Assembly: GCA_903843965.1 (NCBI GenBank)
Contig: CAIMRY010000015.1
Coordinates: 1 to 64,000 of the forward strand
Source: an uncultured delta proteobacterium
Lineage (GTDB): Bacteria; Desulfobacterota; Desulfovibrionia; Desulfovibrionales; Desulfovibrionaceae
DNA: 64,000 nucleotides
Reading direction: 5' to 3'
Position 1 is the first letter of the stretch. Every line of letters starts with the position of its first letter. The notes beneath the pieces were generated by a model that made no database searches, was not told the DNA's origin, and was given only the letters and a program-made list of their open reading frames with translations. This document shows, in pieces, positions 13,580 to 27,081 of this stretch. The position numbers and the translations under genes are program-made.

Positions 13580-13673
13580 TGGCGGAAGCGTATAGGGGTC
13601 GAACCTACCGAACGCCTCTCGACGTTCCACTGGATTTGAAGTCCAGGCGCCACACCGGTGACGATACGCTTCC
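13580..13673 (-). tRNA. selC: tRNA-Sec (anticodon TCA)
   Basis: Read on the minus strand, the gene begins GGAAGCGT and ends ACGCTTCC followed by discriminator G and an encoded CCA, giving an 8-bp acceptor stem. The anticodon arm is CTGGA-CTTCAAA-TCCAG with anticodon TCA, and a long variable arm (AACG...CGTT) follows. The T arm reads AGGTTCGACCCCT. Length is 94 nt. The extended acceptor and long variable arm are specific to selenocysteine tRNA. The organism therefore makes selenoproteins; none is recognisable in this window. Confidence 0.95.
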
Positions 13674-13865: not shown

Positions 13866-15896
13866 TTGAATAGCTTCACCAAAAATTTGCTCATCTGGGC
13901 GACCATCTCCCTTGTCATGGTCGTCCTGTTCAATCTCTTCAGCCAGCAGCCCGCGCCGCAGCTCAAGCTGTCTTACAGCGACTTCGTGACCCACGTGAAG
14001 AGCGGCGACGTGGTCTCGGTCAAGATCCAAGGGCCGAAGATCTCCGGCGTCATGGCCGGCGACAAGAAATTCACCACCTACGCGCCGGACGACCCGAACC
14101 TGGTGCCCTCCCTGGTCAGCGGCAAGATCCAGGTCACCGCCGAACCGGTGGAGGACTCGCCCTGGTACATGACCCTGCTCGTGTCCTGGTTCCCCATGCT
14201 GCTGTTGATCGGCGTGTGGATCTTCTTCATGCGCCAGATGCAGGGCGGCGGGGCAGGGGGCAAGGGCGCCATGAGCTTTGGCCGGTCCAAGGCCCGGCTC
14301 ATCAGCGAGGACACCCAGAAGGTGACCTTTGAGGATGTGGCTGGCGTGGACGAGGCCAAGGAGGAGTTGTCGGAGATTGTCGACTTCCTGCGCGAGCCCA
14401 AGAAATTCACCCGCCTGGGCGGGCGCATCCCCAAGGGCGTGCTGCTCGTGGGCCCCCCGGGCACGGGCAAGACGCTTTTGGCCCGCGCCGTGGCGGGCGA
14501 GGCCGGGGTGCCGTTCTTCTCCATCTCCGGCTCGGACTTCGTGGAGATGTTCGTGGGCGTGGGCGCGGCCCGCGTGCGCGACCTGTTTTTGCAGGGCAAG
14601 AAGAACGCGCCGTGCCTCATCTTCATCGACGAAATCGACGCCGTGGGCCGCCAGCGCGGCACCGGCATGGGCGGCGGCCACGACGAGCGCGAGCAGACCC
14701 TGAACCAGCTGCTGGTCGAAATGGACGGCTTCGAGTCCAACGACGGGGTCATCCTGATCGCCGCCACCAACCGCCCGGACGTGCTGGACCCGGCGCTGCT
14801 GCGCCCCGGCCGCTTCGACCGCCAGGTTGTCGTGCCCTTGCCCGACGTCCGTGGCCGCAAGCGCATCCTGGCCGTGCACTCGCGCAAGAGCCCCCTGGCC
14901 GAGGAGGTCGACCTGGATGTCCTGGCCCGCGGCACGCCGGGCTTCTCCGGCGCGGACCTGGAGAACCTGGTCAACGAGGCCGCGCTGCACGCCGCCAAGA
15001 TGGGCAAGAACCACGTGAACATGAGCGACTTCGAGGAGGCCAAGGACAAGGTGCTCATGGGCAAGGAACGCCGCAGCATCATCCTCTCCGACGAGGAGAA
15101 GAAGACCACGGCCTACCACGAGGCCGGGCACGCCCTGGTGGCCAAGCTCATCCCCGGCACCGACCCGGTGCACAAGGTGACCATCATCCCGCGCGGCATG
15201 GCGCTCGGCCTGACGCAGCAACTGCCCGTGGACGACCGCCACAACTATTCGCGCTCCTACCTGGAGAACACGCTGGCCATGTTTTTCGGCGGCCGCGTGG
15301 CCGAGGAGCTGGTGCTGAACCAGCTGACCACCGGCGCCAGCAACGACATCCAGCGCGCCACCAAGATGGCCCGCAGCATGGTCTGCCAGTGGGGCATGAG
15401 CGAGAAGTTCGGCCCCATGAGCTATGGCGACGACGGCCAGCAGGTGTTCCTGGGCCGGGACTTCATGCAGCACAAGGACTACTCCGAGGAGACCGCGCGG
15501 CTCATCGACGTCGAGATCCGCCGCTTCGTGGACGACGGCTACCAGCGCGCCAAGAAGCTTTTGGGCGAGAACATGGACCACCTGCACAAGATCGCCGAGT
15601 CCCTGCTGGAGCGCGAGTCCTTAAGCGGCGACGAGATCGACCTGCTCATGAAGGGCGAGGTCCTGCCGCCCCTGGTGGACGAGAACAACGTGCGCCGCGC
15701 GGCCAAGGCCTACGAGGACATGAGCCGCAAGTTCGGCGACACCCCGCCTGAAGCCGTGGTGGCCAAGACCGACACCCCCGAACCCGGCGAGTTCAAGCTG
15801 GAGGAGGCTCCGCCTTCGCCGCCGCCCCTGGTCAGAAAGCCGGGCCGGAACGATGGCCGGGATGGCGGACGCGACGACGACAGGGACGGGGAATGA
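13866..15896 (+). CDS. ftsH: FtsH, membrane AAA+ zinc metalloprotease
   Basis: A 676-residue ATP-dependent membrane protease. Two transmembrane helices (about residues 8-25 and 100-120) flank a periplasmic loop. The AAA+ module has Walker A GPPGTGKT at 196-203, Walker B IFIDEID and the SRH block [19 protein letters not shown]. The zinc site HEAGH is at 418-422. The start is TTG, chosen because GGAGG lies 8 nt upstream and the protein begins directly with the first membrane helix. It degrades misfolded membrane proteins and regulators. Its stop overlaps folP (ATGA), an arrangement common in these bacteria. The last ~70 residues are charged and Pro-rich, as usual. Confidence 0.97.
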
Positions 15897-25135: not shown

Positions 25136-25564
25136 CTACTTCATGAACAGCGGGATGGGCGGTCGGGGCACGGCTGCGGGGAAGGCCCGGCGGGTGGCGG
25201 TCTCCTTCACGGCCTTGGTGTCCACGAAGACGTTGCCGCAGCACTGGCACTTCCAGTGGCGCTGCTGCTTCTGCAGGCGCATCAAGAGGCCGTCGCGGTC
25301 GTAGCAGAGCTGGCAGTAGGGCCCCTTGTGGCGCAGGTCGTCCGTGAGCCAGTACTTCTGGCCGTCGAACTCCATGCACTCGGCCATGTCCAGCACCTGG
25401 GCAACCTCGATGATCTGGTTCTTCAGGGCATCGTTCTCCTCAACCAGGGAGATGTATTCGTCCTGCAGGGCCTTGAGCAGTTCCCTGGCCTCGTCGTCCC
25501 GGCCCTCGGTGATGAGCTGGTGGATGCGGCCGAATCCCGTGGCGTGGAGCAGTTTCTTCGACAT
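25136..25564 (-). CDS. Zinc-ribbon protein with coiled coil, unknown function
   Basis: A 142-residue protein beginning MSKKLLHATGFGRIHQL. An N-terminal helical part (about 1-60, coiled-coil-like: EARELLKALQDEYISLVEEN) precedes a zinc ribbon with cysteine pairs CQLC (about residue 82) and CQCC (about 105). I do not recognise a family. The ATG at 25564 is preceded by AGGGAG at good spacing and is preferred to an upstream ATG at 25597. Upstream lies a 600-bp leader region containing two structured repeats and a small hairpin, so regulated expression is possible. Confidence 0.7.
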   Translation of the reverse strand: MSKKLLHATGFGRIHQLITEGRDDEARELLKALQDEYISLVEENDALKNQIIEVAQVLDMAECMEFDGQKYWLTDDLRHKGPYCQLCYDRDGLLMRLQKQQRHWKCQCCGNVFVDTKAVKETATRRAFPAAVPRPPIPLFMK

Positions 25565-25616
25565 GGGGCACTCCCTATGCGTTTGAGTCGTTGACACCCC
25601 TCTTATCGGCCCACCA

Positions 25617-25633
25617 ATGCCCTATCTTTAGGG
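25617..25633 (-). other. Small hairpin in the leader of the zinc-ribbon gene
   Basis: GCCCT-aaagat-AGGGC on the minus strand, about 55 nt before the zinc-ribbon start. It has no T tail. Function unknown. Confidence 0.35.
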
Positions 25634-25645
25634 CGCTGGCGGTTA

Positions 25646-25885
25646 TTGGACAGGGCAACCGAGTGTAAAGAAACAGGCTTGAACCTTTCGACCCCGGCCC
25701 GTGGTGTGCGGAACCTCCGTCCAACCAGGCCGTACACGCCGTCCACCAACGGCAAGACCAAACGGTTATCCAGACGGCGCAGCATTGGCCGGGCCTGCGC
25801 CTTGGCCTGCCCGAAAACGGAAGAGCCAGTGAGTCGCCCCGCTGGCTCCATGCGTACACGCTGTACGGGAATCACTTCGTCTTAC
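25646..25885 (-). repeat. Structured repeat, copy B
   Basis: The second unit, in minus-strand order, of a tandem pair of diverged repeats of about 230 bp. Shared features are AGTGATTCC at the start, a hairpin GAGCCAGCG/CACTGGCTC followed by TTCCGTTTT, then GCAGGCC, then a perfect 7-bp hairpin GGCGCAG/CTGCGCC with a GCCCGGCC-containing loop. Reading frames through the unit do not correspond between copies, so it is probably not coding. Confidence 0.6.
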
Positions 25886-26115
25886 ACGATAAACCGGCAG
25901 TCAGCCGAGCCGGAATGGGGGACACCCTCGCGCAAGCCACACCCGGCGGGCCGCGATCCCGAGCCCCAACGGCGGGACCGGGCGCTTCAGCCAGAAGGCG
26001 CAGCAAGGGCCGGGCCTGCGCCGTGGCCTGCCGGTACGCAAAAGAAAAAGCCAGCGAGTCGCCCCGCTGGCCGCACAAGTGCTGTCATCACTGGAATCAC
26101 TCGATGTTACAACGT
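25886..26115 (-). repeat. Structured repeat, copy A
   Basis: The first unit of the pair, in minus-strand order. It has the same order of elements as copy B: AGTGATTCC, a hairpin GCCAGCG/CGCTGGC followed by TTTTTCTTTT (terminator-like), GCAGGCC, and hairpin GGCGCAG/CTGCGCC. The first stem is shifted by compensating changes relative to copy B, which argues for a conserved RNA or DNA fold. It lies between the M48 protease stop and copy B. Confidence 0.6.
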
Positions 26116-26133
26116 GTTCCGCCCGCGAGCCAG

Positions 26134-26165
26134 GTCAACCGCGAGCCGGGTCAACCGTGGGCCGG
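26134..26165. repeat. 16-bp tandem duplication downstream of the M48 gene
   Basis: Two copies, differing at one base, of CGGTTGACC(C/T)GGCTCG on the minus strand, 37 nt after the M48 stop codon. Confidence 0.75.
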
Positions 26166-26202
26166 ATTCACGGCGCAGCGAACAGCGTCGCGCACCTGCG
26201 CC

Positions 26203-27081
26203 CTAACGGGCCTGGGCCTTGAAGCGGTCGGCCAAGACGGCCAGTTTGGCCGCGTCCGGGTACTTGCGCATCTGGGCCTGGTTCTTGGCGATGCGCGAGG
26301 TCAGCGGCGGGTGCGTGGAGAACCACGAGCCCTTCTTGTCCGGCGAGCTGGCCTCGATGCGCTTGAGCTCCAGCAGGACCTCCATCAGGCCCGCCGGGTT
26401 GTAGCCCGTGCGGTACGTCGTCTCCATGGCCGAGGCGTCGGCCTCGTACTCCATGTTCTGGTCCAGGCCCTTGTCGAAGAGCGTGTTCTGCAGGTCGCCG
26501 ATCATGCTCTCGAACTGCGCGCCCTTGTCGCCCTTCATGGTGGCGGCGGTGATCTGCCCCACGCCGGAGAAGAACTGCGAGCGCTGGATGCTTTTCAGCG
26601 CATGGCGCAGGGCCACGTGCCCCACCTCGTGGGCCAGGATGCCCGCCAGCTGCGCCTCGGTCTGCACGGTCTGCACCAGCGCGGAGGTGACGAAGATGAT
26701 GCCGCCGGGGCAGGCGAAGGCGTTCTGCACCGGGCTGTCCAGCACCACGAAGCGGTATGGGATGTCGGGCCGGGGGGAGTTCATGGCCACGGACAGGCCC
26801 ACGAGGTTCACGTAGTGCTGCAGCTTCTGGTTGTCCACGGGCATGCCGTAGCGGCGCAGGCCTTCCACGGCCAGTCGCTCGCCGATGGTCCGCTCGGACT
26901 TGTAGTCCATCTGCTGTGAGCTGCTGAGTACGCTCTGCGCGCCGGAGAGCATCTTGCGCTCCTTGGAGCTGGGATCCAGGAGGTTGTCCAGGAACCCGGC
27001 GGCGGCCAGGGCGGGCAGGGCGATGAACACGGCCAGGACGAGGTATGTCAGCGGGGCGGTGAGGATGCGTTTGGCGGACAT
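26203..27081 (-). CDS. M48-family zinc metalloprotease, exported
   Basis: A 292-residue protein with an N-terminal signal or anchor (LTYLVLAVFIALPALAAAG) and a peptidase M48 domain. The zinc motif is HEVGH (in GILAHEVGHVALRHAL), with the third-ligand region MEYEADASAM and the substrate-strand sequence NAFACPGGIIFVTSAL. Such Ste24/BepA/LoiP-like proteases work in the periplasm in envelope quality control. The ATG at 27081 has AGGAG 8 nt upstream and opens into the signal peptide. It follows the SH3 gene by 10 nt, so the two form an operon. Confidence 0.9.
   Translation of the reverse strand: MSAKRILTAPLTYLVLAVFIALPALAAAGFLDNLLDPSSKERKMLSGAQSVLSSSQQMDYKSERTIGERLAVEGLRRYGMPVDNQKLQHYVNLVGLSVAMNSPRPDIPYRFVVLDSPVQNAFACPGGIIFVTSALVQTVQTEAQLAGILAHEVGHVALRHALKSIQRSQFFSGVGQITAATMKGDKGAQFESMIGDLQNTLFDKGLDQNMEYEADASAMETTYRTGYNPAGLMEVLLELKRIEASSPDKKGSWFSTHPPLTSRIAKNQAQMRKYPDAAKLAVLADRFKAQAR

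Follow-up and report, generated by a model that had tools for sequence, protein, structure and literature searches.

The stretch of DNA analysed here (the window; 64,000 nt of a contig from an uncultured delta proteobacterium) carries two similar units, arranged in the same order, between a gene for an M48 metalloprotease and a zinc-ribbon gene (Table 1). The initial annotation had picked out this resemblance, and it is borne out by 55 nt at 82% identity with a spacing of 221. On the minus strand, each unit has, in order, AGTGATTCC, a first stem (GCCAGCG..CGCTGGC) accompanied by a T-rich tract, GCAGGCC, and then a second stem, GGCGCAG..CTGCGCC. The first hairpin (GCCAGCGGGGCRACTCGCTGGC) together with its T-tract has the shape of an intrinsic terminator. 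Elsewhere in the window, a selenocysteine tRNA gene lies on the minus strand at 13584-13673 (Rfam tRNA-Sec, 82.9 bits), so the organism probably makes selenoproteins.

Table 1. Features between and including the zinc-ribbon and M48 genes, in window coordinates.
Feature	Positions	Strand	Basis
Copy 1: decayed 3′ end of IS481-family transposase gene; reading frame disrupted, CTAG missing from right end	25724..25950	+	transposase tblastn, C-terminal peptide match; limits by alignment
Copy 2: decayed 3′ end of same transposase gene; right end adjoins M48 stop codon	25951..26206	+	C-terminal peptide match, alignment, hairpin model
Hairpin of copy 1 (GCCAGCGGGGCGACTCACTGGC) with a single C-A mismatch and a poor T-tract	25825..25846	-	hairpin model, folding
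Hairpin of copy 2 (GCCAGCGGGGCGACTCGCTGGC, GCGA loop), proposed M48 terminator	26050..26071	-	terminator scan, fold z -2.5, hairpin model
T-tract of copy 2 (TTTTTCTTTTGC)	26038..26049	-	sequence, terminator scan
Two 16-nt tandem repeats within copy 2	26123..26154	+	repeat comparison
TAG stop of M48 gene, at right end of copy 2	26203..26205	-	CTAG target now CTAA on +, TTAG on -
M48 metalloprotease gene, proposed beneficiary of terminator	26203..27081	-	initial annotation; HEVGH motif seen; conserved in congeners
Zinc-ribbon gene, start MSKKLLHATGFGRIH, downstream of relics	25136..25564	-	conserved in congeners

When the first stems were excised and folded alone, they folded better than shuffled sequences (z -2.9 and -2.5); folding of the whole units of ~140 nt was no better than that of shuffles (z -0.9 and 0.0). 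In copy 2 a GC-rich stem is directly followed by a T-rich tract and was picked up by a terminator scan, while copy 1 resembles an intrinsic terminator only weakly, with a mismatched stem and a weak T-tract. This mismatch means that, contrary to the initial annotation, the stem of copy 1 does not stay perfect through shifted boundaries, and the second unit, formerly ended at 26120, extends towards M48 as far as 26206. The right arm of copy 2, from hairpin to stop codon, is ~32 nt longer than the usual 96, an excess that fits the 16-nt repeats within it. By alignment, the copies have 25 derived changes in common and 27 and 35 private ones, pointing to local duplication of an already decayed copy or to descent from an older subfamily. 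The second stem was considered as a functional part and set aside: it is common to both window copies, but conservation among the related remnants described below reaches only 47-55% in the stretch that precedes the first hairpin.

The strand opposite the hairpin and T-tract encodes a peptide ending in SSERASELPRWLHEYNHFRNHKSLQRKTPMSRIGERVNNVLQLHS and a stop, the C-terminus of an rve_3 transposase, and the first stem corresponds to the transposase codons ASELPRWL. An annotated IS481 transposase matched the window directly (tblastn, 25724-25917, E 1.4e-6), and the element’s own C-terminal peptide matched both units on the plus strand in a shared frame (25819-25914, E 7e-5; 26041-26142, E 3.6e-5). 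With hairpin starts at 25825 and 26050, the copies are offset by 225 nt (75 codons), and both match a single frame of one transposase, contrary to the earlier statement that frames do not correspond between the copies; the units are alike because their ancestor was protein-coding. A Pfam search of the conceptual ORF 25646-26203 gave no match, although the other searches found transposase similarity, and blastn of the raw window sequence, which is too diverged, found nothing among plasmids. Plasmid relatives of the element are annotated as IS481 family transposases, and copies at contig ends score above the Pfam cut-off for rve_3 (PF13683). At window positions 14561-14941, a weak tblastn match (E 0.03) to an IS481 transposase covers its N-terminal half and may be due to chance.

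Searching the genome itself with the unit returned 42 places, and eight of the better ones lie at contig ends, as is the mark of a multi-copy mobile element. When these places were read, they proved to hold a single element: its right end (TGTGGAGTTGCAAGACG...) is constant and adjoins CTAG, in surroundings that differ. Among recent copies, CTAG flanks 28/28 right ends and 23/24 left ends, and the TAG stop of the transposase is itself derived from the CTAG target. The IS481 of Bordetella duplicates NCTAGN upon insertion. The window units are not a complete mobile element: they comprise only the last ~75 codons, with a broken frame and without a left end. On these comparisons it is essentially certain that both units are what is left of the 3′ end of an insertion sequence of the IS481 family; the source is protein-coding, and neither a new ncRNA nor an independent palindromic family is supported. 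At the start of contig C4 of G000 (locus L021), a recent IS481 copy seems to have split a reading frame whose beginning, MILQALNEYYGRL, resembles that of a Cas8c protein; the CRISPR locus of that genome may have been disrupted.

The genus to which the window genome belongs is Humidesulfovibrio-like and holds dozens of remnants of this element, nearly all of them beside different host genes. At many loci, what survives is limited to the right end with the final 45-80 codons, and most of the remainder has been lost; away from contig ends, about 10 N-terminal-only remnants stand against more than 30 C-terminal ones, by hand count and with the N-terminus showing somewhat lower conservation as well. 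A covariance model of the antisense hairpin, the kind of search that the initial annotation had proposed, matched 25 places in the genome itself (17 away from contig ends), among them copy 1 (25795-25862, E 3.8e-12) and copy 2 (26020-26087, E 1.2e-13). It matched up to 25 places in congeners and gave one partial match in 25 genomes outside the genus; some relic-like matches may be ordinary terminators, and the genus-wide figure of about 120 places includes some ends of intact copies at contig breaks. A repeated, intergenic family of mobile origin with a terminator-like stem on the minus strand, as first described, is supported. A lack of other copies, which the initial annotation had named as counting against its proposal, is contradicted by these matches. 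Doubled hairpins also occur at L093, L097 and L106; at L097 the second copy begins at the CTAG of the first, and at L093 and L106 the hairpins are spaced about 98 nt apart. A hairpin of this type at G000:C17:167772-167816 (L023, about 1270-1320) is almost symmetrical and has a T-tract on each strand (AAAAGCCAGCGGGTTCGCCCGCTGGCTTTT); it is possibly a bidirectional terminator between genes.

That many remnants start in the same transposase region (about residues 235-260) would also be expected of a MITE-like, non-autonomous element consisting of the last ~70 codons and both ends and spread in trans by the full-length element. This is very improbable, as sequences upstream of the start region are unrelated and no common left end was seen by eye, start points vary, and some loci retain N-terminal or internal pieces; by eye, the pair of terminal inverted repeats around a fixed internal sequence that defines a MITE was not seen.

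The hairpin is the best conserved part of the remnants. Compared with the consensus of full-length and recent copies, remnant identity was 0.93 in the hairpin and 0.87 in the core of the T-tract, against 0.47-0.65 in the surroundings, for a set of remnants partly recovered by a protein search that favours conserved parts. Since the hairpin had itself helped to find remnants, the test was redone on 24 remnants recovered by right-end DNA alone (leaving out L059, which has lost half its hairpin), and identity to the active element was 0.94 in the hairpin, 0.67 in the spacer and 0.66 in the right end (p 4e-5). L059 (G014:C19:49226-49324) is a right-end remnant in which the first half of the hairpin is lost and CTAG has become CCAG, and it may be a picture of a remnant whose terminator is not needed.

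The changes within the hairpin speak to the cause of this conservation. Remnants show 64 non-synonymous and 11 synonymous changes, as compared with 2 non-synonymous and 5 synonymous ones in copies that are full-length or recent; hairpin conservation is therefore not explained by protein constraint, and the same excess rules out a conserved small protein. Stem energy was kept in remnants (-15.0 vs -11.7 kcal/mol for random changes, p 5e-6), the GNRA loop is retained in most of them, and recurrent changes converted a G-U pair to G-C in 10/47 and lengthened the T-tract in 14/47 and 8/47, although remnants share ancestry and these substitution tests are not fully independent. Similarly, 97.2% of cells in the pair counts were paired, a value reached by 0/500 shuffles, which alone is a weak control because the sequences are related.

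These data bear on two other accounts of the remnants. They could be neutral IS481 debris, tails persisting by chance in which the hairpin only seems conserved because it lies in a conserved part of the transposase or because the insertions are young; several remnants are indeed close to the active element, and the hairpin encodes the conserved motif ELPRWL. Against this, most changes to the hairpin in remnants are non-synonymous yet preserve pairing, flanking sequence of equal age has diverged far more than the hairpin, N-terminal remnants are far scarcer, and retention depends on orientation (see below); we regard this account as unlikely and already disfavoured. The initial annotation had suggested instead a new small RNA on the minus strand with its own terminator stem. 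A terminator-like stem is present there, but an Rfam search gave no match at or above the gathering score, a simple sigma-70 scan found no promoter-like site in 25550-26300, and conservation among remnants is confined to the hairpin and T-tract; a small RNA is very improbable.

Orientation relative to host genes separates remnants from recent insertions. The right end abuts an opposite-strand host stop codon, as judged by six-frame codon usage, in 33/37 remnants compared with 12/28 recent copies (Fisher p 9.5e-5); the remnant count leaves aside 10 more in which CTAG can no longer be recognised, including the window pair, for which the TAG was assigned by hand. The remnant fraction also departs from one half (p 1e-6). 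Left ends of recent copies lie at a host stop in 9/24 cases, a proportion similar to that of recent right ends (p 0.78), indicating no orientation preference at insertion itself. Retention is thus orientation-dependent, likely because the right-end hairpin reads as a terminator for the adjoining gene.

Comparison with congeners suggests what preceded the relics at the M48 locus. Copy 2 ends exactly at the M48 TAG, the remains of the element’s CTAG target, and sister species still have GCTAGA at this site. Among 12 congeners with a close M48 homologue, the stop is TAG in nine and is contained in GCTAG in five. A GC-rich inverted repeat followed by T’s, of the ordinary terminator type, lies no more than a few tens of bases past the M48 stop in most or all of the 12, as read by eye (for example GGCGGGGGCTGACAAGCCTCCGCCTTTTTT in L196), and is followed by the leader of the zinc-ribbon gene. 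In the window genome this leader is intact, a terminator scan found no native sequence of the congener type after the M48 stop, and the two relics lie between stop and leader in place of the congeners’ terminator-like sequence. In a second comparison, at L024, a simple rule picked out a terminator in none of the orthologues, and the remnant seems to have supplied one there; orthologous empty sites were compared at these two loci.

Together, these observations argue that IS481 tails carrying an antisense hairpin have been repeatedly domesticated as gene-end terminators, including that of M48 here, a reading to which we assign a probability of roughly 80%. The mismatched stem and weak T-tract of copy 1, and the loss of half the hairpin at L059, speak against it. 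The element carries a hairpin, mostly with a GNRA loop, and a T-tract antisense to the C-terminal codons of its transposase, about 100 nt inside its right end, and its site is CTAG, which frequently includes a gene’s TAG stop. Upon insertion with the right end towards the gene, the hairpin would end the transcript of the host gene. Selection could then keep the hairpin while everything else in the element, and at times the host’s native terminator, was lost. Copy 2 would be the working terminator of M48 and copy 1 a weaker second one, arisen by local duplication or a second insertion. We strongly infer that the hairpin terminates transcription and is retained for this reason. It is also probable, though we hold this less firmly than the domestication itself, that transposase codons double as an antisense terminator and that a transposon frequently targeting stop codons gave the genus dozens of gene-end terminators that were kept, improved and sometimes substituted for ancestral ones.

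If so, insertion would be nearly harmless, since the stop codon is regenerated and the transcript ended. A reason is thereby suggested for the tolerance of elements with stop codons as their targets. The remnants would offer a replicated case, with statistics, for the birth and replacement of bacterial terminators, and would make terminator turnover directly testable. The strengths of the case are that one element family is involved with dozens of host genes, most of them different, that sister species show empty sites, and that recent copies provide an orientation control.

Relationships to known systems are of three kinds. With the IS481 family (DDE/rve_3 transposase, CTAG-containing target) the units share a homologous transposase C-terminus and ends abutting CTAG, but the window holds only decayed tails and no mobile element. 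The PRW motif is not kept in five relatives from Rhizobiales and Azospirillum, and in a sixth the corresponding antisense stretch folds differently; the terminator hairpin therefore seems to be a feature of this lineage and not of the IS481 family. A literature search, outside whose coverage most subscription papers fell, returned one precedent of principle and nothing that describes IS481 tails ending host genes as terminators at a targeted stop codon. That precedent proposes that the host can exapt IS terminators to attenuate genes lying downstream of the IS (Naville and Gautheret, 2010; PMC2965389). The likeness lies in IS terminators that outlast pseudogenisation and are reused by the host; there, the IS terminator is upstream of a host gene, whereas here it is antisense within the transposase coding sequence, at host 3′ ends, and joined to the stop codon. 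The same paper mentions BIMEs as bidirectional terminators (PMC2965389). Gene-end hairpins of the REP/BIME type are likewise repeated downstream of genes, but the hairpins described here differ from them in their origin from a DDE transposase gene, their exact junction with the host stop codon and the T-tract on one strand.
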